64,000 bases of DNA from Galerina marginata (taxonomy: Eukaryota > Basidiomycota > Agaricomycetes > Agaricales > Galerinaceae). Shown in pieces: positions 12,833 through 26,836 of the stretch; the stretch's first letter is position 1; each line of letters begins with the position of its first letter. The translations under genes and the position numbers were made by a program. The notes under the pieces are model-generated. The model was not told the origin of the DNA. It searched no databases and worked only from the letters and a program-made list of their open reading frames with translations. The stretch is from NCBI GenBank assembly GCA_023014335.1, contig JAECYW010000008.1, forward strand, positions 620,001 through 684,000. The letters run 5' to 3'.

Positions 12833-12891
12833 TTGTTATTAAAAATAGCATGTGCTAGGCGGAAACCAAACACCTTAAATCGCTACCCAGA

Positions 12892-13471
12892 CACATGGGA
12901 CAGTAGTATATTTACATACTATACTGTAAAATGCCAATCAACGAAGTAGTCATAATATACGGGCTCAGTCTGACAAATCTATTTTGCTACGAAGTTGACG
13001 TGTTCCATGGTCCGATCGGAATGGCTACGATGTAGCCATAGGATATGGTCCGATCGGATTGTGCTGCCACGGTAGCGGTGGCCGTCGTATGAGTGGGATA
13101 AATTTTGCGGACCCCGATATATGAGCACTGCGGTCAACGGGCTGCCAAATTTGCTGGACGCGGTATTTTCTGGTTTTTTTTTTTGGGGGGGGGGGGATTG
13201 GTCCTGGGTCCTGGGGAAATGTGCGGGCACCGTTGTTGGGACAATTTCTGGCCTGGGCTCCGGCAGAATATGCGGGATCCCGCACCCACTGGCTTGGGGT
13301 TGGGCCGGATTCCGATCAAAATGTCTGCCGGCCAAAAGAATAGCATGCGGGCTCCAATAATTTTCTTTTGGCGGTGCGGTTTATTTTAATTTTTGGGGGA
13401 TACTTTGGCCTGGGTTCCGGGAAAATGTGCGGGCACCGCGGTTGGGCAAATTCTGGCCTGGGCTCCGGGAG
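12892..13471 (+). repeat. left terminal inverted repeat of KDZ element
   Basis: About 580 bp, matching the complement of 26178-26756; the only difference I saw is a G12 versus C11 run near 13185-13196. It contains the palindrome TCCGATCGGA twice (about 13012 and 13048), four CGG-N3-CCG sites (13108, 13224, 13306, 13430) and the 14-bp palindrome TGCGGGATCCCGCA near 13271. The second half begins a ~205-bp subterminal repeat unit (about 13207-13410) that recurs, diverged, at 13410-13555. ORFs predicted in it are by-products. Confidence 0.9.
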
Positions 13472-13764
13472 CATATATATGTAGGATCCCGCACCCAGAG
13501 GGTTGGAGTGGGCACACATCCTGATCAAACTGTGCGGCAGCCAGTAATTCAATTTTGTACAAGCCCAAGATCAACTTTCCATGATTACAACTGCAAGTGT
13601 GACAAGTTTTCGGAAATCTGATGTTTGCCTAAGGATTTGCGGTGCCCGGTACTGGTCAGCAGCATTGACCATATATCCGAATTTAGGTTGAGGTTAGCGA
13701 GAGGCAGCAAATGGTTATGTATATTGGCGACATTTTAAAAAACAGTGTATGGTACCCTCGTTTG

Positions 13765-15186
13765 TCAATCATCTCCTAACAGTTGATCTTCTTCCGCATC
13801 GTCCGCAGCATACTCATAATAATCGCCCATCTCGTCTTCCTGATATTCGTCCTCATCAAAGTCGGCGGGGTCCGAGAAATAATCGTCGTCGTTCAGTGCG
13901 TCGTTTGCGAAAGCTGATGGGATGGATGTTGTGGCACTTCCATCCGAGGTTGTAGACGACACATCCTCTATTTCGACGTTTCTGACTTCCTCAAGATTGA
14001 GCATAGACGCAGTTGGAGGATGTGTAAGAGCTGTGGTATTCACAGGGGCTGGTAAAACATTTGTTGATTTGGGCGGAGAGTCTACACCGGCAGCCGTGGT
14101 CCTGTGAGTCGAAGCATCATCAGTTGGTGGGGCTAACTGGGTTGAAGAATTGCTTTGCTTCGTTTTAGGGCGGTTATCAGGCCCTGGCGATACCGACGGG
14201 TAATACTTCGCGAATTCTCTTGGGAGGTTATATCCTCTTGTCTTGAAAGGTACGCCATATTTGCTGTTAATATTGTGAAGTATACTATACGCGCCAACGC
14301 GTAGAGTTGACCTTTCAACGGCCTCCCGACCTTCTACTATCTGCCCCTCGACAACCGTCTGTGCCATGCGGAGCTTTTCAAGGGCGAGCTTGAGTGTTTC
14401 TCGAAGGGGGACACAATTTTCACAGAGAGCCTCCGCAGGGTTTGGTGAAGGAGGCAGGGGTGGTTCAGGTCGTGGGGCAAGCCCGGGCACCTCACCTTTG
14501 CCAAAGCACATGCGGTGGCCGAGCGTAGTCAGCTCTTCACTAATCATCGGGTCGCCGCGACTGTCTCGTGGTATCGCCTAATCAAAAATATTGAAAAGGG
14601 AAGTGATGATGCATAATGATTACTTACCGCGTAATAAAATGCCATAAAGTGGTCTTGTCCCACTTGATAATTCACAACACGATCCACTGAGCCGCCTGTC
14701 TTCCACCAGTATGCAAATGGTTTTGTCGATTCAAGGATTAGAGTGTCGTCATAATCGGTGAAGTCCATATTGATGGACTCCGGAATCGTAATGTGTAGTT
14801 GTGCTCCAACATAGGGTGTATAGACGGTGGCCGCAACATCTGTCAAAAGGTACGGGGCCCGAATATGGAACCCTTGAAGCGAGCAATAGCCAATGTGAGC
14901 GAGGATCATCTCCTGCAAGAATGATGAATGATAAAATTTAATAGTCAGTTGAAGCACTTACAATTTCTTCGCGAATATGGTCATCGCCGTTGACAGGACG
15001 GTCTTTTGGCTCCACAACCATAAGAACCCGGAGGGCGGCTCTCAGCCTGGCCATAAGGACGTGTAATTTCAGTCGGGCCATAGCCTCACGATCTTCGAAA
15101 GGGAAAAAAAAACGGCGACTGGGAGACGGAGCGACGAGCTTCGGAAGATCCTTCTCCACAACGGAGGCAGAGGTCTTCTTGTCCAT
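13765..15186 (-). CDS. KDZ-element accessory gene 1, unknown function
   Basis: Three exons, 15186-14962, 14912-14628 and 14577-13765, join in frame to about 440 residues; the introns (49 and 50 nt) have GTAAGT donors. The start is the ATG before DKKTSASVVEK; an upstream in-frame start at 15237 is possible. The first third is basic/helical (AMARLKLHVLMARLRAALRVL). The middle looks globular (IGYCSLQGFHIRAPYLLTD, TDYDDTLILESTKPFAYWW, NYQVGQDHFMAFYY). A CENC pair and helical region are followed by a Ser/Thr/Pro linker and a very acidic tail (DEDEYQEDEMGDYYEYAADDAEED). I do not recognise the family. It lies just downstream of the transposase on the same strand, under 100 bp away. It contains CGG-N3-CCG sites at 13866, 14088, 14825 and 14853. 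Probably an element-encoded helper. Confidence 0.65.
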
Positions 15187-15284
15187 GATGGAGGTAGAGA
15201 AACAGGATTGTTGTCCAATTTTGATATCAATCTCCAATCTTTAAGATCGATTTAATCATGTGACCAGACTAAAAATTATAAATT

Positions 15285-18200
15285 TCAGTGTACCTCTTCT
15301 CTCACTGATTTGTATGTACTGTCTACATTGGAAAAAATTGACTCGGCTACCCGGGAAAGCTCGTTCCACATGGCAATCTTTTCTTCAGCATAGGCGCGGT
15401 GTCCGATGTGACCGTCTGGTATTTTGTCCCGTCTGTCCCGCCACTTTCGGGCCATGTGCATGTAGAATCTCACCGTCCAGCCCATCTCGTGTTGTGTCAG
15501 ATTCAGCTCTTCGGCCCACCGGTTTTTTTGGGCTCGGGCGCTCAACCAGTTGATTCGATAGACTAGATAAATTTCAAAAAAATTACCAACTTGCTTCTGA
15601 AGTGATGTAAAATTGACTGACATTCGTTGTGATGTTCATTGGCCAACGCCGAATTAGCAGCCTGAGAGTTGGGGTTGGGCAGTTGATTGGAACTGTAGAA
15701 CCACGGAAGCCGCCGGTTGCTCTGACCAGACGAATTCGGGTCGACGACCTGTGTGCTAATACTGCAGTCTTTCAGTTCCAAATACGGATATCTAGCTTCC
15801 AGAGATTCTCGCGAGTCTGGCGCTACCAATTTTCGCATGATCGCCCGATTGTGATTGTAGACTGTACGCTGCAACGTCCAAGCCCGCTTGAGTATGTGAA
15901 CGGCATCCCATGCTTTGGTCCTTGTAGCTACTCCGGTGGCCGGTCGAACTCCATTTTTCATCTGCCAGGACAACTGAATGACCGCAGTTCGGACAAGCTC
16001 CAATGCATCATCTGCCTGGCCATGCCTAATTTCCAACTCGGACGTCCTGAGGTCTTCAACAAGGGTGCGGTCTTCAATCGACAAGGCATTTATCTGATTG
16101 TCCGTCAATGCAGAAGGGAAGGGCAGCAGCTGGCGCTCCGGGTCGCCGTCAGTCAACGTGGGTTCTTCGGTCTCCGCATCTTCAGTATCAGATACTTCAT
16201 CCAAGACAACGACAGTTCTCTCGCAAATTAAATCGACAAGATCTTGGCCCAGGTGTTCAACGGCGCCTTTGGTGAATGTATTGATTTCCCTTTGTAACTG
16301 GCGCCTTTTATTCACCAAGTCGAGCTTTTGAACTGTAGTCGGCTCCCGCTTACACTTACGGGCTTCTGAGCGCACGGCGGCCCTACATGCTTTTCAGATG
16401 CATTAAGCAAAATGGATGGAACTAACTTACTGGCGCTCTTCAGTTTTTAAACCGGCTGATAGCCATGCAGCCCGTCCAAGGCGGCCTCCGTGGCGCGCAC
16501 TGTCTGCAAGCTCAGCCAGCGCCATCTTCAGCTCAATCTCCCGACGAGTCAAGGCTGAGTATAGATTTGACGGTTAGAATAATCAGGCTGCATATAATCT
16601 GTTACTTGCCTTTAGGAACTTTCTTTTTCATAATGTCCATCCTGGTCACATCGGACGGCCGATTCAACTCAGCAGCCTCGATTTCCTTTTTCCATTTTGG
16701 CAGCAGGCTCTGTGGGGATGATTGCGTCATTCCATCATAATAAATTGCGCTAGTCCGTTCCTCAATGACCGCCCGAGAATAACGTTTGGCAATTGTTTCC
16801 GCTAGACAAAAAAGTGAAAATCCATTGAAATTGGATCAAAGGGAATACTGACCCATGTTGATGTTTTTTTTCCAATTGGAATCACCCATGTGATCATCGA
16901 GGATTTCGGTGCGGTGGGCCGTTGTTGCTCCTACGGTGCTCCGGGAGATTCCATTGAGAATCGACCATAGTGTTTCCAGCACTTTGCCATCAACAATACC
17001 AGCTCCAGGAACGTAGGTTGTCGCCCAGCGATATAGACATTCCTCTTTGTGCCCATGTACGTGGAACAAACCAATTGCACCTATTAGAGTTACGGCGTCC
17101 GGGATGCTAAGCGTCGTACTTTTGGTGATGCGCTCAACAAGTCTGACATGGAACTGGCACATTATGTCATAAATGCAATGCACGCACGTAACGCCCTCCA
17201 TGGCAATGTGCTTGAGACATTCGCAGAGTGAATAGTCCATGGACATCTGTTTCTCCCCTTTGACAAAGTCGACCAGACTACCAATGGCGAAACACCCATG
17301 GCGACCGCAAGCCCAACAACCAACCCCGCGAACGCGTTTTCCGGGGCCCGCTTGGTCTTTATTTGCGGCGGCATTGTGGTGATTGCAGGTGCGAGTCTAA
17401 AAAAGAATTAGCTGCGTCGCTCTGAATTCAGCTAAATATGCATCTACTCGCCTGCTTGTAGATTTCGGGATGTTTTTCAGCTTCCTCCAAGTGGGCTTTG
17501 TACGGGCCCCGGGCAGTCATGAATGCATCACCATCTGTTAAATGAACATCATCGGCTTCGTTCTTCTGTTTCAAATGATATGCTTTGAAATTTCCATCCC
17601 CAGCAACGGTTAATGTGTTTAGTTCTCTACAATATTATTTTGAGTTGGACAATTTAAAGTTTTGAGATGCGTACTTACTTTGCTGTCTCCTTTTGCCAAT
17701 CATCAGGCAAATTGACTCCTGGTTGCGGGCAGGCGGCGCAAAATAGTGCTAATTTGACCAGGGCAGCCATTGGTATTTCAGAACAACAAGGTAACTTGCG
17801 GGCTTCCGCTGTTGGCAAGCTAGAATTTGTGCGGGCTTCCGGTGTAGGCACGCTGGAATTTGTGCTGGCCTCCGGAGTATTGCTGCCAGGTATTCCCGTG
17901 TCCAGCGGTTGTGATTCTGCAAACGCAGGTGGGGCGCTGAAGAGGTGATTCCGTTCAGGGTGCGCATCTTGAGTCTGTGTTGACGCAGGGGCTTCTTTTG
18001 ATGACATAGGTAGGGCGGGGCCCAAAGGCTGTGGTAAATGATCTGCGGGGCCCGCACGGTTCATTTCGTCATTGGCGGCGACCGCAGCAGCTGCCGCTTG
18101 AGGTGCGGGTGCCGGAATAATCACTATTTGAGTAGCGGTGCCCGGACGGTCCAGTGTATTCATTGCGGGGGCCGCAGCATTTGTTGCTGAACCTGCGGGG

Positions 18201-19522
18201 CCCGCTACGTTGAGCTCGCTGATTACGGGAGCCGCAGTATCCGTTGGAGTAGAGGCGGCGCCCGCACCGTCTGGCGAAGAGTGTGCGGAGGCCGCATGAA
18301 CAATATCCGTTATAGCGGGGCCCGCCCTCTCGTCGGCCACCACTGGTTCGCTTATGGATGCAGGTCCAATAGTGTCATGCCCTCTTCCATGCATCTTCCA
18401 AAGTTTTAAGTTACGATACTGCCGGCTCACCCTGCGAAGCTCGCGATATCGATTTATTACAGTTTTCGGGAACGCCGGGCAGGTAAGTCTCCTCAACTTC
18501 TGGTAGTATTGGTAACCTGAAGTTTTGCATTCGAGGCTAGAAAGCCGGAAGTCGTTTAGAACATGCAAAGTAAACGCAGTCTTGGGTGTTTGGAAGCTCG
18601 CAGGAAAAAGCCCCATTTTAAGGTACTGAACATCGAGGGGATCCGTAGAACATTGGCAGCTGCACTCGACCACTGGTAGCTGATGAATTCCGGAAGTGTC
18701 AATGATGTGTATGAACCGGTTGCCGCATGAATCGTAGTTCGGCGCCCGGAGGAATTGTTCTGATTGGGACGTCCTCTCCTCCACAATATCGTCTTCGTCT
18801 TCTGGTTCGTCGTCGTATGTATTTTCCCTGTCCCAGATAATGGTGGCCTCCACAGTGTCATCGATGTCGCGGGAGTGCGGAGTGCCGGGAAGGTACTGCT
18901 CAGTCGGGCGCCGCTGTTCCTCATTTTCTCGGGCACAAGGGAGTCCATGATGCCCAAGATGCAGCTTGACCCCCGTCTCCCAAAGGGCGGCAGACCGAAA
19001 ATATCTGCCATTCCAGTATTTAATCCGGTGAAATGGTAGAAATTGGTGAATATCACAACAACAAGTTGTGCAAAGCATACGACCACCCAAGCACATGTCA
19101 CATCTCCAGGTTGCCGGTGTTGTCTTGCATATACCACAGACAGGATTCAGATCGGCGGGGGCCTCGAGAGAGAGTAATGTGTGTAGATGAGCGGCTCGCC
19201 GTGGAACCCACTCTCGGAGGTAATCATTCTGGGACTTCCCACCGGTTTTGGGAAGGGGTAACGCTTCAAGATTGTCGAGAACCTGCTGTTCAGTAATGTC
19301 TCCCTCAAAATGAAATACTTCGCCAGCCGATAGTCCAGTCTCGCGGGCGCCGACTGTGGGTTGAGATAGCACAGGAGCTGGTGGGACAACAGGTTCTGGT
19401 GGGCGGGGCTCCGCTTGCTTCGCTTTATTAGACGTTTTTCTCTTCTTCTTGCCCCATGTCTCTTCTTCTGGTTCGTCGTTCTTTGGACCTTCAGTGCTGA
19501 TAACCTGGACGCGTCGCTTCAT
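15285..19522 (-). CDS. KDZ transposase (CxC2-type cysteine cluster plus RNase H-like core)
   Basis: Multi-exon gene. Exon 1 is 19522-17679, then 17626-17452, 17396 to about 16854, about 16803-16612, and further exons to the stop at 15285. Exon 1 holds a basic N-terminus, then a treble-clef-like cysteine cluster (CGICKTTPATWRCDMCLGG, CTTCCCDIHQFLPFHRI, GVKLHLGHHGLPC, VVECSCQC) matching the CxC2 cluster of KDZ transposases, then a long Ala/Pro linker. The catalytic core follows with the expected motifs: GDGNFKAY (first acid), CGRHGCF, YDIMCQFH (second acid), GLFHVHGHKEEC and GAGIVDGKVLETLWS (third acid). The C-terminus has the family helices (RHGQADDALELVRTA; RINWLSARAQKNRWAEEL). The ATG at 19522 is preferred because the frame extends upstream only through TTG. 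One intron (after 17452) uses a GC donor. It moves the element by cutting at the TIRs, from family knowledge. The divergent partner at 20128 shares its promoter region. Confidence 0.9.
17799..17874. repeat. 33-bp spaced CGG-N4-CCG-type repeats
   Basis: CGG-GCTT-CCG at 17799-17808 and 17832-17841 and the degenerate CTG-GCCT-CCG at 17865-17874 lie 33 bp apart. Here the intervening sequence is also similar, giving 11-residue protein repeats (EARTNSSLPTA type). This is an ordinary young tandem repeat carrying a variant of the same palindrome. Confidence 0.6.
18046..18324. repeat. ten CGG-N3-CCG palindromes at exact 30-bp spacing inside the transposase exon
   Basis: Exact sites start at 18046, 18076, 18106, 18136, 18166, 18196, 18226, 18256, 18286 and 18316. 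Most extend to TG-CGG-N3-CCG-CA or close to it. The intervening sequences are unrelated. On the coding strand each site encodes a small Ala/Gly/Pro tetrapeptide (AGPA, AASA, AGAA, AAPA, AVAA) and the six residues between differ completely. DNA sequence and spacing, rather than protein, seem to be what is kept. Confidence 0.85.
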
Positions 19523-20127
19523 TGTCAAGGCAGAAAGAATCTCGAGGAAACGGTTTCAATGACCAACATCTGTCCGATCTAAATAATATAGGTAGCTGAC
19601 ATGAGGAAGACACATGTTTGTTCGTGAATGCCTTTTGTTCGCGAATGCCTTGCGGGCGATGAGGAAGCTGTGTTCTTTTTACATTCAATGATTTGTTCCT
19701 AATTTGTTCGTGCTGCTCGCAATGCAATTGGGCGGTTAATATGTGATCGAGAGCTCTAATTGTGTCCTATTCCACGACTTACAAACGCAAAATAGTTTCA
19801 GGTTATGAATTCAACGCATTTGCATCCGTTGCTGCCTGTGTGCATGCAGACCACGCTCCTACCATGTGTCAGGTCTTCTTGCCCTGCATGTGCAGCGTTC
19901 ATTGTGCGTTCACGTCAGAGCCTGAAATGAGGAAGGGAAGAATAATTACGTCTGAATGCTCTGATAATTCCTTTGACCAGTGAATGAATGCACCTGGTGG
20001 ACAGTTCCATTTAAATGAGAACAAGCAGGGTTCCTATCCCTGCAGATTGCAGATTCAACCTAGGGATACGACGGAAGGACAATTATCGTTATAAATACTG
20101 TCGTCCCGACCAGAATATGCTATTGCA
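19523..20127. promoter_or_regulatory. divergent intergenic region between transposase and accessory gene 2
   Basis: 605 bp separate the two divergent starts. It has a local direct repeat of TTGTTCGTGAATGCC / TTGTTCGCGAATGCC near 19617-19650 and no gene. It is presumably a bidirectional promoter. It lacks exact CGG-N3-CCG sites, unlike the genes on either side. Confidence 0.5.
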
Positions 20128-22031
20128 ATGGCAGACACAAACCCCCCAAATGCTGGCGACGACAGCCTACCATCTTCCGTACATGCTGCAGAACCACTCG
20201 AAGACCCAGCTATGCCCTGCGGCCGGCCGGAACGTTCGATATGGACCCCTCAAGAACTCACGGTGCTCCGGTCGCACATCGAGGCCTACCAAAACACACC
20301 ACGAAAGGAGAAGTCTCATTACATCGCATCTAAGGTGACCACAGAGATAAAAGGATGCTGGGGAGATCGATACACCAAGGCGAACAGGGCCAAAGACAAG
20401 GTTGCCAGAGATCAGTGGACCAAAAAAAAACACGTCAGTGGCTTGTTATTCACGTTGGAAAAAAGCATTCACATATTCATCAGCAAATTTGGGTTTGGTT
20501 TGGCAATCATGCGAGAAGGAGACGACGCCTGCGGATCCCGGGATTCAATATCGGTGTTAAATTCGACTCTGTATTGATTGCTGAGAAGAAAAAAGAAATC
20601 GACGATCTCACAACAGAGTTGTCGAATGAAAAACCCGGTGAGCCACGCTGGATCGGATGCTATCAACGAGCAAAGAAGCAGATCAAGGAGCAATTGACTG
20701 AAGAAGAAATCAAATGCTATGAGGACAAGGTACAAGAATGGATTCGAGACGGTGTCCCGGCCGATGTACAAGCTGCGTAAGTGCTTTCGGCCCCCCGCAC
20801 AATTGCATTTTCTAATTCATTTATACCTAGCAATGTTTTGAAGCACGGTCAGCATATTATTCGAGAAATTGTAGCGGCATTATTTAAAAGCATGGGTATG
20901 CGCATGATGGCCTTTGAATGCCATACCGACAAGGAGGGCCGGATGAGATGGTCGTCGTGAGTAGAACTTCCGGCTCCCGCGAACACGTCGTTGACAAGCC
21001 ACACAGATTTGACACCCAACGACTTCAACTCGACGCAGCCAGTATCCCATCGTTTTCCGTTTACAATAAGAAGCTATTCAAAGATCTTACGGATGGTTGG
21101 AAGGACTACACCAGACACATTGCACAGATTCAACGGGGAGCCGCCGTGGATCCGGTTGCCGCACCTTCTACGTTTGTTTTGAGGGACCTGAAATTCCATC
21201 CACAAGGTTTACCAAGTCGTGAACTCCAGGGGGGTAGAGACTGCACTTGTGCAACAATCAATTTTGCGTCACTTCTACTTTATTCATTATGGTGTGTACG
21301 CTACTAATACTTTGAACAACGTCTTCTCACATTAACAAAATTCAGGGTTAGCTACCAAGGGTGCAAAGCGGGTGCCGTACTCACGAATGACGACTGCGGG
21401 GGCCGATTGGACTCAATTTGTACGGAAGACTGATTTTCCAGTGGGTACCTCCTTTAAAGATCCAGCTTCGTATCACGCGCAGGAGCTCCAAGAGATTTTA
21501 AGCCTCTGGCGTCAACGTGAGGAGCGAGGTGAACTTGTCTTCCGTTTCATTGGCATTCCGGAGAAGGAAGAGGTGTTAGAGCCAATGTACCCGCCCGAAG
21601 CATTCAATGATTTCATCATCCCAATGGCCCCCGCTCCGACGACCTCGATTGAAATTCCTGACCCCGGTAGTGATTCAGATGATTCTGACTTCCACATGAA
21701 AATGTTCAGTGAGATGCCAGATGATGACCCCGTTATTGCTGCAATAGGTGGCTCTCTGCAGAATGCGGAGACCGCGAGCGAGATATTGAATTCACCGGAC
21801 GCCGCAGAGGAATCAGACGAGTCGGCGGCTCCCGCTGTTGTTCGCGGACGCCGTTGTCCCCCTAAAAGAGCGAGAGGCGGTGTCCAGCCTCTGGATGATC
21901 AACTGCCTACCCCAGGACCCAGCAACAGGCCAACTCCATCATCACCACCGCCAACTGGGCGACAGTTGCGTCCCAGGATTGCGGGAGACCGCGCACAACC
22001 ACCCAAACGAGCACCAAAAAAGAAAAAATAG
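20128..22031 (+). CDS. KDZ-element accessory gene 2, possible DNA-binding protein
   Basis: Spliced gene starting MADTNPPNAGDD. A Myb/SANT-like opening (SIWTPQELTVLRSHIEAYQ) lies in exon 1, which ends at about 20433. Exon 2 opens with QIWVWFGNHARRRRRL, resembling a homeodomain-type recognition helix, though I could not confirm a full domain. A helical region follows (EQLTEEEIKCYEDKVQEWI) and a conserved-looking middle (HIIREIVAALFKSMGMRMMAFECHTDKEG; DFTRYIAQIQ-like SVYNKKLFKDLTDGWKDYTRHI). The last exon starts about 21370 (ADWTQFVRKTDFPVG...) and ends in an acidic then Pro/Arg/Lys-rich tail with a terminal PKKKK. Introns near 20434-20483, 20777-20830 and 20957-20998 are approximate. CGG-N3-CCG sites are dense, including three at 30-bp spacing (21766, 21796, 21826). 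Function inferred only from basic motifs. Confidence 0.65.
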
Positions 22032-22303
22032 AAATCAAAGCAGTTTGTTGCGTTGGGATGCTACTTTAGGAGTCAATGGGAATTCATTACATTTACCTAC
22101 GAACCCTTACCTACAGAAATGCGATGCTTACTTCATTGACACAAAGGCAAGGACAAAATTATTGATTGGGGGCCAACCCTATATACAACTACGGGCCCCG
22201 GCGTAGCACGACACTATGCGACATATATGATACATTAAAAAAAAAAAACCGGCTCCCCGTTGCGTGACAAAATCGAGAGGGGGAGGCGGCGGCAACTATT
22301 CGA

Positions 22304-24199
22304 CTACCTCTTTGACCCACCACCACGACCGCGAACTGGAGCTTTCCTCTTCTTTTGCAGAGGTTGAGCAGGCGCGTCCTCTGTCTCCTCGGTGTCCGAA
22401 ACCTGTGGGGCAGCCTTGCGTTTATTCGATTGCCCATCATCGTGTTCAGATTGGGCAGGCGGCGACAAAGAACCGGAGGACCCACCCGCGTTAGCCTCAG
22501 GGTCTAAAGCAGGAGGCTCGCTGGGTTTGGTAGGAGGGGCTGACTGCTTGAGGGCGAGAGGAGAGGCGAGGACCGGGTTTTGGACAGCGGAAGCCGCAGA
22601 GGCGTCAGGAGCGGAGTCCGCACCAGGAACAGATGGGGCGGGGCCCGCAGGTGCGAGGACTTCGTGACCAGCATTCGGTGGCGCGGTGGTCAGAGGCAAG
22701 GCAGGCCCCGCATTGTTGTTTGAGGCGGGGCGTGACACCTGGGTGTCTTGACGAGCGGGGGCTGATGCACGATCTGAGGGGCGGCGATTGGCGGTAGGGA
22801 TGGCAGCGGAGGGGAGGCGAGCAGGGAGAGCGTTGGTGTTGGACGTGGCGGCCTCCCCTGGGCCTGGGGGTCTGCGAACGACGGGTCGTGACATCTTCGC
22901 AATCAACGCCAGGAGCGCGGCTTGGTTGTTTGCGATTTTCTCGTCCTGCTCGGCGAGCTTGCCATCGAGACGCTCAATGTGTTCCAGGAGCTCCGCGTTC
23001 TGGTTGTGCAAGGAGCGGATGGTCATGAACGTCTTGACGAGAAGTTCACCCACTGTCTGGGGGAAAACCTCCTCGCTGTCGTTGTCGGGTGCCTGCGAGT
23101 AGTCGACAAGGAAAAGCGCTCCGGGGACCGGCGTCTCCAAATCGATCCCATGCATTTGAGCGAACGGGCAGCCGCGTTTCTTCGTCTTGCATGCAAGACA
23201 TGCGGCGGCCCGCCGGTCAGTCGATTCGAGCACCGGGATCCTGCATACCTCGGTGCCCTTCTTACATGGGAGGCAGGGTTCGTCGGCGTCCTTCCATTCG
23301 ATTGGGGCCTTTGGTGCTGCCTTCTTCGCCATTTTCGCCATGCTCGCAGCGGCGCCCCGGCTGCGAGCCTTCCTCAGCGGAGCCAGATCCTCGTCTCTGT
23401 CGTCGTCCTCGTCCTGGACGTAGGAGCCGTCTTCTGAAGCGTCGGGCTCCTCCCTGTCATCCTGAACGGGTTCCGACTTCGCCTTTGCTTTAGGCTTGGG
23501 GGTGAGAGCCGGCTTTTGGGTCGTGGTTTTGACCTTTGGGGGAGCGGTTCTAGTTGGTTCCTCGTCCTCGTCAGCATCCGAATTCACGGTGGGGCGACTT
23601 TTGGGCGGCGGCTTGGACACCTTTTTGGCCTTGTTGTCGGTGGTCACGGTGGTGGCCTTGTTTGAAGTGCCTTTCGGGGGATTGGGGTGGGAAGGGGGAG
23701 TGGTGGAGGCCGCTGCTGAATTTACGATGCGGGGCGCCGAAGCACCAGTGCGGACCACCGCCGCTGTTGCCTTCGCAGGTGGGGCTGACAATTCCTCTGG
23801 TTCCGTTGCAAGTTCCCCCGCATCCCAACGTCGAATGATTTTGCGCAGCTTGTTCAAGCTGGGTTGCAGCGCCACTACCTCGCCAGTCGTTTTATCGACT
23901 TTCCGCCCGCCTTCGAAGAGCGTCCAGCAGTAGTCGAGGAGTGTCCAATTTTTGAGCCCTAGTTTCTGCCACTGGGTGTGTACGCGCTCCTAGCGAATCG
24001 AAAACGTCATTGATAAAAAAAAAACGTAGACAAGTGCTAAAAAAAAACTCACCAATACTTGGTAGTGCGCTGGCAGACTCTCGTTGAACAGCTCCGCGTT
24101 CTCCACCAACGCGCGAACATTCTTCTCCCACTTTGCAACATCTGCAAGGAGAGCATTTGAAGGAGTTTTGGCGGTGGCGGCGGCGGCGGCGGCGGGCAT
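22304..24199 (-). CDS. KDZ-element accessory gene 3: Zn2Cys6-like cluster plus coiled-coil protein
   Basis: Two exons, 24199-24053 and 23989-22304, joined in frame (intron 23990-24052), give about 610 residues; the start is the ATG before PAAAAAATAK. The N-terminal part contains a helical region (WEKNVRALVENAELFNESL, then WTLLDYCWTLFEGGRKVDK). A charged Pro/Ser/Lys-rich linker follows. At about residues 285-320 there is a six-cysteine cluster CX2CX6CX14CX2CX6C (CLPCKKGTEVC ... CLACKTKKRGC), basic in its second half. A coiled coil lies at about residues 365-415 (LHNQNAELLEHIERL, KLAEQDEKIANNQAALL). The C-terminus is disordered and ends KRKAPVRGRGGGSKR. Zn cluster plus coiled coil is the layout of Gal4-class dimers that bind inverted CGG half-sites, though the cluster is internal and its spacing slightly long. 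It may recognise the element's own CGG-N3-CCG sites (inference). Confidence 0.7.
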
Positions 24200-24440
24200 A
24201 CTGAACGAGCTGTGTGGTGAGAAGCGAGCGGACTGTCGTGGGTGGACGCGCGGTGTGAGATTGTGGTTGAGAAGCAAGTTGAAAGCTTCCGTTTGTGGAA
24301 ATTGAACTTGATGCAAACTCAACCAAATTGTGTCATGTGCTCACTTTGTCGGCCCCGCCCGCACGACATCAATTTAGGACATTCAGGCGGAACTTAAATA
24401 TCTAATCTGATTCTGCGATAGATAAAGTCGTATTTCCTTC

Positions 24441-25933
24441 ATGAACTTATGCGCATCTCTCCCTCCTCCCACAAACAACAATCCTACAACGTCCTTGCAA
24501 GTATTAAGTGCTGCCCTGCAACAACTCCAGTCTCAAAAAATCGAATTTGAAGAACTCTTATCTCGGAGGCCGAAAAGAGAAATGAATCCAGAGTCTGGTA
24601 AGTTGTCAAGATGGCCACCGTTAATTGGTCTGACACATTTACAGGGAAACCTGCCCATTCGCGAAAGAAGCGAGCACCCACCAAGGGCTTAGGTCCGGCA
24701 CCCGAAGTCTCCAGCAACGATGAAGTAGAATCGTCGGCGCCCGCCAAAGTCCCACAAAAGTCCAAAGGGAGGAAAATGGCTTTACCCGCGGCACCCGCAG
24801 TGTCAAGCGATGACGAGCCGGCTCCGCCCAAGAGCTCCAACAAGTCCAAAGGGAAGGCGAAATTGTTACCACCGGCGCCCGATGTCTCAACTGACGATGA
24901 GGAACAAGAGTCAGGCCCTGAAAATATCCCGCAGAAGAAAAGGACGGCCGCACCAGCACCCGAGGTCTCAAGTGACGACGAGGAAGAAGAGCCGGCTCCC
25001 GCCAATGTCCCGCTGAAACAAAAGGGGACGATATCAATGGCACCCGAGGTCTCAAGTGATGAAGAGGAACAGGAGTTGCCACCTGCCAATGTCCTGCAGA
25101 AAGGCAAAGGCAAACTGCAGCCGGCGCCCACCGTCTCAAGTGATGAAGATATTCTCTCCAGTTAGTAATAGTTTCTCGATGTACAATAAATAGTCTACCT
25201 AAATGCTGTTATCTAGGTAACGACGGGAAGAACTCATCGGGTCGCCGCACTTTTGCTAGTATGGACGGTGTTCCTGGTGGGTTGAACAATTGTATATTGT
25301 AGGACTTACTTGACATTCTTTGAAGATATTTCTGTCGACATTTCAAGGGTTCAAAAAATTCTTGGTACATTTCACGCCTGCTCTTATTTCTTTCCGCCCT
25401 AATTGTTTGTTGTCAGACACTACCGAATCCAGGCCGCAATCCGGATCACCGCTCCCGTCATTCGTCGATGAAGTCATTGCTGGTGACGCCTTCCCCCCTC
25501 ATGCTAAAGGATTTATTCCCCCTCCTGAAGCTGTTTGTCGTTACAATCGGAATGTGGCAAGCAGGATGACCGGTCCCATGGATGAAGTTTCCGTGGGCGA
25601 ACAGCCCCTCAAACCCTCAGACATCAATTTGGACAAAACACAAGGCCCTGGAAATTTTAGTCCACCGGTCACCTTCGTATGTTCCGCAATTTCAATGATT
25701 TTCTGATGCTTATTTATTATTACCCAAAGCACTACACAAAGGAACACCTGTACAATATCCACCTTGGCGTGGAAGAAGCTAGTTTGAATGTGAGCTCCTA
25801 TGAAGACAGAGTGCACGTTCTTTCGTCGGCGCGCCGAACCCAGCTACAGTCAGAGATGATGCAGGTGAGGCGATTGGAACTCGTGCAGGCCGAGTTGGAA
25901 GGGGTGCGAAAACTCTTAACGACCTGGCTCTAG
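24441..25933 (+). CDS. KDZ-element accessory gene 4: acidic repeat protein, unknown function
   Basis: Exons are approximately 24441-24597, 24645-25159, 25217-25275, 25420-25677 and 25731-25933, with some longer introns. The N-terminus is a short helix (VLSAALQQLQSQKIEFEELL). Exon 2 encodes about six repeats of the form APEVSSDDE(EEE)...P(A/P)NVPQKxKGK, alternating acidic Ser-Asp-Glu blocks with Lys/Gly stretches. These are likely disordered, with casein-kinase-2-like sites. The central part (DTTESRPQSGSPLPSFVDEVIAG...) has no recognised domain. The C-terminus is a helix or coiled coil (VHVLSSARRTQLQSEMMQVRRLELVQAELEGVRKLL). The repeats carry CGG-N3-CCG sites at 24696, 24735, 24789, 24873 and 24993. 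It is divergent from accessory gene 3 (about 240 bp apart). Confidence 0.6.
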
Positions 25934-26177
25934 AAATAAATGTACTCACTGATGTAAAATTCGCGAAATTCATACTTCTTGGACAGCTAATATAGTAGGT
26001 AACAAGTAAAAATATCAGAATGTCAGGAGTTCGTCATCAGTGGGTGCAAGGATTCAACACCAGGAGCGCGGTGTCCGCATAGGTATTCTAGGTACGGTAT
26101 AAATTTGATTTCACGGTGGAACCTGAAGGCTATTCTTTTGGCCGCCGCTCAGCTCGATTGGCGGGATCCCGCACATT

Positions 26178-26756
26178 CTCCCGGAGCCCAGGCCAGAATT
26201 TGCCCAACCGCGGTGCCCGCACATTTTCCCGGAACCCAGGCCAAAGTATCCCCCAAAAATTAAAATAAACCGCACCGCCAAAAGAAAATTATTGGAGCCC
26301 GCATGCTATTCTTTTGGCCGGCAGACATTTTGATCGGAATCCGGCCCAACCCCAAGCCAGTGGGTGCGGGATCCCGCATATTCTGCCGGAGCCCAGGCCA
26401 GAAATTGTCCCAACAACGGTGCCCGCACATTTCCCCAGGACCCAGGACCAATCCCCCCCCCCCAAAAAAAAAAACCAGAAAATACCGCGTCCAGCAAATT
26501 TGGCAGCCCGTTGACCGCAGTGCTCATATATCGGGGTCCGCAAAATTTATCCCACTCATACGACGGCCACCGCTACCGTGGCAGCACAATCCGATCGGAC
26601 CATATCCTATGGCTACATCGTAGCCATTCCGATCGGACCATGGAACACGTCAACTTCGTAGCAAAATAGATTTGTCAGACTGAGCCCGTATATTATGACT
26701 ACTTCGTTGATTGGCATTTTACAGTATAGTATGTAAATATACTACTGTCCCATGTG
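26178..26756 (-). repeat. right terminal inverted repeat of KDZ element
   Basis: Complement of 12892-13471 with a one-base homopolymer difference. CGG-N3-CCG sites at 26211, 26335, 26417 and 26532 mirror those of the left TIR. Just inside (26155-26177) the similarity continues weakly with another CGGGATCCCG palindrome. Confidence 0.9.
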
Positions 26757-26836
26757 ACCCAGATGCAACTCAAAGTCAGAAGACAAGATGAAATCGGCCT
26801 CCATGAAAGTTATCTCATTACTGGACAGTAGAAGTT

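Follow-up and report, generated by a model that had tools for sequence, protein, structure and literature searches.

A KDZ transposon packed with CGG-N3-CCG sites lies in the window analysed here, a 64,000-nucleotide stretch of Galerina marginata DNA (C42:620001-684000 within a 69.3-Mb, 43-contig genome), and several described systems resemble it in part. In CACTA/Spm elements, TnpA acts on subterminal repeats and brings the ends together. These elements share with the KDZ element a DNA-binding protein of their own (a candidate here), many short sites and non-autonomous relatives that keep them; the terminal inverted repeats (TIRs) are also the densest class here. However, CACTA/Spm sites are confined to the ends, whereas here 10 of the 62 sites are in the TIRs and 52 elsewhere, running through exons, and the transposase is KDZ. 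In VANDAL21 of Arabidopsis, the VANC21 protein binds to YAGTATTAY motifs, which are densely packed, lie mostly in noncoding DNA and have spread via tandem repeats (PMC5735166, PMC10398659). The likeness lies in an element-encoded sequence-specific factor (again a candidate here), a short motif that is dense in the family and rare elsewhere, its multiplication in tandem-repeat arrays, related families with different motifs and a rapidly changing factor (PMC5735166, PMC10398659). Contrarily, VANC21 motifs are mainly noncoding and form single-orientation arrays, and motif-free coding probes were bound poorly (PMC5735166), while the sites of the KDZ element are palindromic, occur in all exon phases and are denser in coding open reading frames (ORFs) than in other internal DNA, 45 of the 62 being in stop-free coding ORFs. 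The candidate reader here is a fungal Zn2Cys6-like protein, and the likeness would be one of mode of action only.

As for the transposase, two Kyakuja families of Laccaria have 7-bp target duplications, CA..TG ends and a TET/JBP gene, and no TIRs (PMC12730594). Our element has in common with them the KDZ transposase, the 7-bp target-site duplication (TSD) and the 5'-CA..TG-3' ends, and differs by its TIRs of ~583 bp, a zinc-cluster gene and the lack of a TET/JBP match. We file it as KDZ only, Kyakuja-like by its TSD and ends. The main text of PMC12730594 makes no mention of zinc, subterminal or CGG. On the protein side, inverted trinucleotides such as CGG, set at a fixed spacing, are frequent targets of Zn2Cys6 proteins (PMC4872168). 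CGG-N3-CCG itself is the motif proposed for PglR, a Fusarium Zn(II)2Cys6 regulator, with 1.9 copies per kb in its promoters vs 0.10 in the background (PMC4872168); for SirZ, a relaxed CGGNNNCCG was used (PMC8191991), and the half-site of AlcR is given as TGCGG (PMC12941744). The resemblance to these three concerns an identical palindrome or half-site and the six-cysteine pattern (PMC4872168, PMC8191991, PMC12941744), to which AlcR adds a weak profile match and a long loop between the cluster halves. They are, however, regulators of the host, each promoter having a few sites (PglR has nine, spread over five promoters; PMC4872168), whereas here the gene sits in a transposon, there are dozens of sites, also within exons, and the two halves of the cluster align with the Pfam profile in swapped order. 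Among the titles and abstracts listed, none described CGG dyads along the length of a KDZ element or a Zn2Cys6 reader for this type of transposon, and among the matches listed the motif string was found in two papers, each about host regulators.

Distribution of CGG dyads in the element and in host DNA

The element is a bounded mobile unit, with TIRs and a 7-bp target duplication (Table 1). It contains 62 CGG-N3-CCG sites (N3) vs 8 in the remaining 50.1 kb of the window, and 33 CGG-N4-CCG sites (N4) vs 5. The initial annotation had listed 54 N3 sites. All of them exist (44 single starts and ten at exact 30-bp steps, 18046 to 18316), but the count was short by eight, at 13076, 14513, 15397, 17093, 18717, 23467, 24564 and 26564. 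It had also called N4 variants common and host DNA almost free of sites; the host flanks are near the shuffle expectation (2 N3 sites vs a mean of 2.0 over 300 shuffles on the left, 6 vs 7.9 over 100 shuffles on the right). When the element was shuffled locally with its dinucleotides preserved (300 shuffles), means of 3.9 N3 sites (maximum 11) and 3.8 N4 sites (maximum 9) were obtained. The excess is specific to the spacer: spacers 0-2 and 5-15 gave 0-5 sites each in the element and, among 64 trinucleotide dyads x 16 spacers, N3 ranks first by count and N4 second. The everted CCG-N3-CGG and CCG-N4-CGG do not occur within the element (0 and 0). The direct CGG-N4-CGG is also high (27 vs 8.7) and, judging from the list of sites, this fits an overlap with CGGNNNCCGG.

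GC content was controlled with 27 element and 97 host windows of 500 bp, matched in four classes. Element windows held 0.75-3.75 sites and host windows 0-0.15; CpG counts were similar in three of the four classes, and 44.2 vs 37.6 in the most GC-rich one. Within the element, the TIRs are the densest (8.5 N3 sites per kb), coding ORFs have 5.0 per kb, and the rest, outside ORFs and TIRs, has 7 sites (1.9 per kb). Once the 30-bp array and one TIR were removed, 47 N3 sites were left. The sites are thus spread over TIRs, coding ORFs and the remaining DNA, but the 'five genes' of the initial annotation are less certain: we counted four conserved units, and the last part of the fourth (25374-25930) is without an N3 site. 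Likewise, the proposed TG..CA extension is a preference only: TG is present at 32 of 124 half-sites, and the both-side form at 3 of 62 sites. The preference for TG is strong in the window element and the C20 relative and weaker in two more distant ones, which would fit a joint change of reader and site; the AlcR half-site has the same flank.

Conservation of the sites inside coding exons

Synonymous codons were shuffled 2,000 times in nine ORFs. The 43 N3 sites in these ORFs compare with a mean of 6.0 (maximum 15), and the 21 N4 sites with a mean of 3.1 (maximum 11). By codon phase, exonic N3 sites are split 32/6/5, ten of the 32 coming from the 30-bp array. The ten units of this array are identical in all ten at the six fixed motif bases only, and the homologous exon of the C20 relative contains a longer series, of 25 sites, also spaced by 30 bp.

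For conservation, the coding exons, with the array omitted, were aligned with those of relatives in C20 (L032 and L033), C23 (L034, partial) and C39 (L035, partial). Inside N3 sites, four-fold third bases were unchanged at 32 of 39 positions (C20), 22 of 25 (L034) and 18 of 21 (L035), vs a codon-matched expectation outside sites of 16.8, 9.7 and 7.7 (stratified permutation, P = 0.0002-0.0004); all three comparisons use the window element and hence are not independent. Whole N3 sites were kept in place in 17/31, 11/17 and 11/16 cases, vs 13-16% for GC-rich six-base windows, and CGG/CCG triplets outside dyads were kept in 50/186, 32/130 and 31/117. The check on synonymous sites that the initial annotation had proposed is therefore clearly positive in three comparisons. 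Its opinion that GC content and codon usage are a poor explanation withstood the dinucleotide, synonymous-codon and GC-matched controls alike and, among other KDZ copies in the genome, near-identical copies and diverged relatives carry the same sites. Its reading of the motif as an element-wide recognition site is thus supported.

Because the sites are in excess over shuffles and four-fold bases inside them stay unchanged more often than expected, we conclude that they are maintained as DNA, and that selection keeps them so is practically certain. It is true that the 30-bp series is in an Ala/Pro-rich linker and that 32 of the 43 exonic sites are in one codon phase, as would be expected if the sites merely followed from GC-rich codons, from Ala/Pro-rich linkers or from simple repeats. 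However, synonymous shuffles keep the protein and its codon usage and still do not exceed 15 sites vs 43, and the spacer specificity, the noncoding and TIR sites, the conservation and the 47 sites outside the array and one TIR also speak against this origin, to which we give practically no credit. Composition, codons and simple repeats were ruled out by the dinucleotide and synonymous shuffles, the conservation and the GC-matched windows.

Candidate reader, relatives and purpose of the sites

The element encodes a Zn2Cys6-like protein whose cluster follows the pattern C-x2-C-x6-C-x13/14-C-x2-C-x6-C across lineages. The proteins of the relatives are 32-43% identical overall to that of the window, with the six cysteines invariant, and the KDZ core of the same lineages is 91-92% identical; by these identities, the Zn2Cys6-like gene is fast-evolving. 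PF00172 has the lowest E-value among Pfam families for all four cluster segments, that of the window being barely ahead of Dickkopf_N. A four-member profile searched against solved structures gave only weak hits (E 0.2 and above), including coiled coils such as GCN4 and the ethanol-regulon factor, which we take to be AlcR (E 0.23, second of 15 matches, collinear, with the six cysteines aligned). The zinc-cluster ORF was found in 4/4 saturated lineages scanned, namely the window (62 N3 sites in 13.9 kb), C20 (72 in 14.0 kb), L034 (53 in 10 kb) and L035 (41 in 9.5 kb). It was found in 0/21 other KDZ loci read (L009-L028 and L031, mostly 10-kb stretches), which together have 26 N3 sites in 210 kb, 0-4 each. 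In L029 and L030, two near-identical copies of the window element, the zinc ORF falls outside the stretch read. From its cluster, its predicted helix and this distribution, the zinc protein is quite likely to be the reader of the sites.

Sites are also present in relatives without transposase. The 16-base terminus of the element occurs 23 times genome-wide (control 0), and 18 of these occurrences form nine facing pairs. Seven of the eight zinc-gene loci are enclosed by such pairs, and the remaining pairs, with one-mismatch ends, enclose units without KDZ or zinc-gene matches, a label that rests on searches giving lower bounds and, for the C5 unit, on a reading of its ends. The C5 unit has a perfect 7-bp duplication, GGTCGGG, and lies within the C5 copy of the window element, so that its move postdates the origin of that copy. 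A pair of sites spaced by 24 bp was found 49 times in the genome vs 5 for the reversed control: 25 pairs are in zinc-gene elements, 22 in terminus-bearing KDZ-less units (4 of them in C39:3504-3506 kb, where a single terminus, with one mismatch, was seen) and 2 elsewhere (C3:1789994 and C43:956812). KDZ-less relatives carry their site arrays towards their ends. As these units have the sites with neither transposase nor zinc gene, a role in cis is indicated, in mobility or in accessibility. Apart from them, L036 (C17:245901-248500) has different inverted ends and inverted subterminal CGG-N3-CCG arrays, whose step is mostly 28-30 bp (21 sites over 2.6 kb); it may be a transposon of other descent that relies on the same reader.

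Of the KDZ loci read, the nearest after the four saturated lineages are L028 and L031, which are copies of a single family (core 58% identical), and L027 (48%). No zinc-cluster ORF was seen in their 10-kb stretches. Genome-wide, Tet_JBP gave 18 matches, none inside any zinc-gene element; the top three (76-78 bits) are beside L028, L031 and L027, and the rest score 34 or less, over a single stretch. CGGCCG is found at 19 and 20 per 10 kb in L028 and L031 vs a shuffle mean of 1.8-2.0 (maximum 6), and eight ORFs of L028 have 14 copies, in all codon phases, vs a synonymous mean of 4.4 (maximum 11), which hints that related elements may use different CGG spacings. In the 18 KDZ loci that belong to neither group, 180 kb contain 16 N3 sites. 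In L027, the everted CCG-N1-CGG was found 16 times vs 3.9, and some other KDZ loci show excesses of AT-rich dyads, for which tandem repeats are suspected. Between 12892-22143 of the window and the near-identical L029 and L030, differences are mostly C/T and G/A, and 10/14 and 8/22 of them affect CpGs outside the motif, a pattern that CpG methylation of the elements would produce.

We infer the following mode of action, which we consider probable, with ample room for error. The half-site would be (TG)CGG, and two half-sites would face each other over 3 bp or, less often, 4 bp. A dimeric, Gal4-type Zn2Cys6-like protein, produced from 22307-23989 (minus strand), would bind these sites and coat the whole element and, through the common sites, its non-autonomous relatives, so that the coat would be a sequence-specific mark of self. 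Most likely, the coat would keep or make the chromatin of the element accessible, in a VANC-like anti-silencing, and it would also help the transposase to locate its DNA. Tandem duplication, in 24- and 30-bp arrays, would raise the density of sites, and selection would hold this density even in exons, the proteins adapting to the DNA code with Ala/Pro/Gly-rich linkers. There is about an even chance that anti-silencing is at least part of the purpose, and the two roles, in silencing and in transposition, need not exclude each other. A more detailed version is tentative, and we would not bet on it: the element would carry a self-recognition code in its own exons, read at CGG-N3/N4-CCG sites by its own Zn2Cys6-like protein, possibly with swapped cluster halves; the transposase linkers and other proteins would be bent to the code, the 24-30 bp arrays would order the coat along the helix, the TET/JBP sisters would use another CGG spacing, and zinc coat and TET/JBP would be alternative anti-silencing devices. 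If the coat exists, fungi would have their own equivalent of sequence-specific anti-silencing encoded by an element, based on an unrelated transposase, and the exons of a transposon would offer a clear example of selection keeping a DNA-binding code within coding sequence. For tests, a single genome would provide one protein, a short motif, four diverged lineages and natural relatives lacking KDZ. The system could also help to explain how KDZ elements, of which some basidiomycetes have many, distinguish their own DNA from that of the host.

Several results weigh against the proposal of a zinc-protein coat. On the protein, PF00172 gives 15.1 bits on the window cluster, below the cut-off of 21, and passes it in one of the four cluster segments (L034, 22.2). 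In the best PF00172 stretches of all four, each cluster half pairs with the opposite half of the profile, and whole-protein scans find PF00172 in 3/4 members, with a best E of 0.047. The single-sequence model of the zinc-cluster fragment is poor, except for its last four ten-residue blocks, those of the helix, at pLDDT 88-96. On the association, the four lineages belong to one clade (KDZ core at least 90% identical) in which zinc gene and sites could be co-inherited, so that phylogenetically there is only one association; the KDZ places read are 27 of 98, mostly in 10-kb stretches that can miss a gene. Gene B accompanies the Zn2Cys6-like gene at each of the eight loci found in the genome, and may itself be the binder. 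On the sites, besides the shared use of the window element in the three alignments, N4 sites are kept in 11/21 cases in C20 and in 5/20 and 6/19 in the two more distant relatives, where they are also rarer (13 and 15); because of this retention, the case for N4 is weak in these two. Sites show turnover alongside conservation, since 17/44, 11/24 and 11/23 aligned sites of the relatives are also in the window copy, and the near-identical copies, compared without matches under 800 bases, have too few motif-base changes to test (0/219 and 2/384). Finally, KDZ-less relatives, which need no transposase expression of their own, fit a role in transposition at least as well as anti-silencing.

This last point leads to the possibility that the sites serve transposition itself, protein or transposase coating the element and joining its ends with no anti-silencing role. 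We consider it unlikely, yet the most serious of the alternatives. The TIRs are the densest class of DNA, and the ~3.15-kb and ~5.2-kb relatives without KDZ or zinc-gene matches share the terminus and bear arrays towards their ends, which favours some role in mobility. However, the sites run along the whole element, reach a higher density in coding ORFs than in the remaining internal DNA and are conserved deep in exons, while end synapsis alone requires no internal exonic sites; a coat along the element is therefore favoured over end synapsis or promoter control alone. Promoter control, in which the zinc protein would be an ordinary transcription factor of the element's genes, is how the candidate CGG-N3-CCG readers PglR and SirZ are thought to act in fungal gene clusters (PMC4872168, PMC8191991). 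Since most sites are in coding ORFs, DNA other than ORFs and TIRs is the poorest in sites and KDZ-less relatives also have arrays, it is very improbable here; dozens of conserved exonic sites are not required for it.

The sites could also be recognition DNA under selection but read by gene B, by the CxC2 domain of the transposase or by a host Gal4-type factor. Gene B and the zinc gene cannot be separated by co-occurrence, and the CGGCCG excess of the sister KDZ copies, whose read stretches show no zinc-cluster ORF, means that some CGG reader may be ancestral. For gene B, we found a sub-threshold GTF2I-like match at 21336-22028 (20.6 bits, cut-off 27), and the GTF2I family has DNA-binding members, but its pieces match no Pfam family above cut-off, and the single-sequence model of one of them has low confidence. 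In contrast, the element has a zinc cluster followed by a long helix, of a type that often reads fixed-spacer CGG dyads (PMC4872168), and the KDZ loci outside both groups are nearly free of N3 sites. Another reader is thus improbable. More improbable still, and hardly worth retaining, is that the sites act via their paired CpGs, bound, shielded or demethylated against CpG methylation with no dedicated dimeric reader. Each site has two CpGs, the near-identical copies differ heavily at CpGs outside motifs, mostly by C/T and G/A, and sister elements encode a TET/JBP dioxygenase. Yet CpG counts per 500-bp window are similar to those of the host in three of four GC classes, the enrichment in the window element is limited to N3 and N4, and it has no everted sites, although these would contain the same CpGs.

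Gene content and coordinates

Features are collected in Table 1, exon limits being those of stop-free ORFs and not tested splice sites. All four coding units match the C20 relative by tblastn, as do the five transposase pieces, each with its homologue there; the five pieces probably make up one gene. The C20 relative element spans 172076-186078, with the TSD CAGCTTT read from its flanks. The swapped halves of the cluster at 23168-23275 could reflect a circular permutation.

Table 1. Coordinates of the element, its parts and related units (window positions unless a contig is named)
Feature	Coordinates	Strand	Basis or remark
Whole element, KDZ (Kyakuja-like)	12892..26756 (13,865 bp)	none	End sequence 5'-CACATGGGACAG...
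Left TSD, ACCCAGA, 7 bp	12885..12891		Flank sequence
Right TSD, ACCCAGA, 7 bp	26757..26763		Flank sequence
Left TIR, ~583 bp	12892..13474	+	Inverted matches 304 nt 100%, 300 nt 99%
Right TIR	26175..26756	-	Inverted matches as for left TIR
KDZ transposase gene, several exons	13768..19555	-	Pfam matches and homologues in C20 relative
Transposase piece with CxC2 domain	17678-19555	-	Pfam CxC2 cysteine cluster, 81.4 bits (cut-off 27)
Transposase piece, KDZ catalytic part	16839-17396	-	Pfam KDZ (PF18758), 125.7 bits (cut-off 26.6)
Transposase C-terminal exons	15566-16393, 14547-14957, 13768-14577	-	Homologues in C20 relative
Ten-site 30-bp series inside transposase exon	18046..18324		CGG-N3-CCG
Gene B, several exons	20095..22028	+	Homologue in C20 relative
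Zn2Cys6-like protein, 561 aa, proposed site reader	22307..23989	-	Cysteine pattern, relatives
Cluster C-x2-C-x6-C-x14-C-x2-C-x6-C	23168..23275	-	Lys 268, 270 and 271 and all six Cys invariant across four relatives
Long predicted helix just past zinc cluster	22898..23065	-	Read as a coiled coil, likely dimer interface (model)
Fourth coding unit	24602..25930	+	Acidic repeat protein 24602-25162 (5 N3 sites), then 25374-25930
L028, sister KDZ element with TET/JBP gene	C10:910780-920779
L031, sister KDZ element with TET/JBP gene	C39:259082-269081
KDZ-less unit, ~5.2 kb	C23:309657-314903		Paired termini
KDZ-less unit, 3,155 bp	C39:3662705-3665859		Paired termini
KDZ-less unit, 3,155 bp	C39:3668051-3671205		Paired termini
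KDZ-less unit, ~3.15 kb	C5:1497550-1500703		Inside C5 copy of window element; duplication GGTCGGG (ends in L029, L037)

In the TIRs, at 12986-13061 and 26587-26662, repeated GGTCCGATCGGA-like palindromes adjoin GCTACGA repeats, and the KDZ-less C5 relative has similar palindromes at either end.

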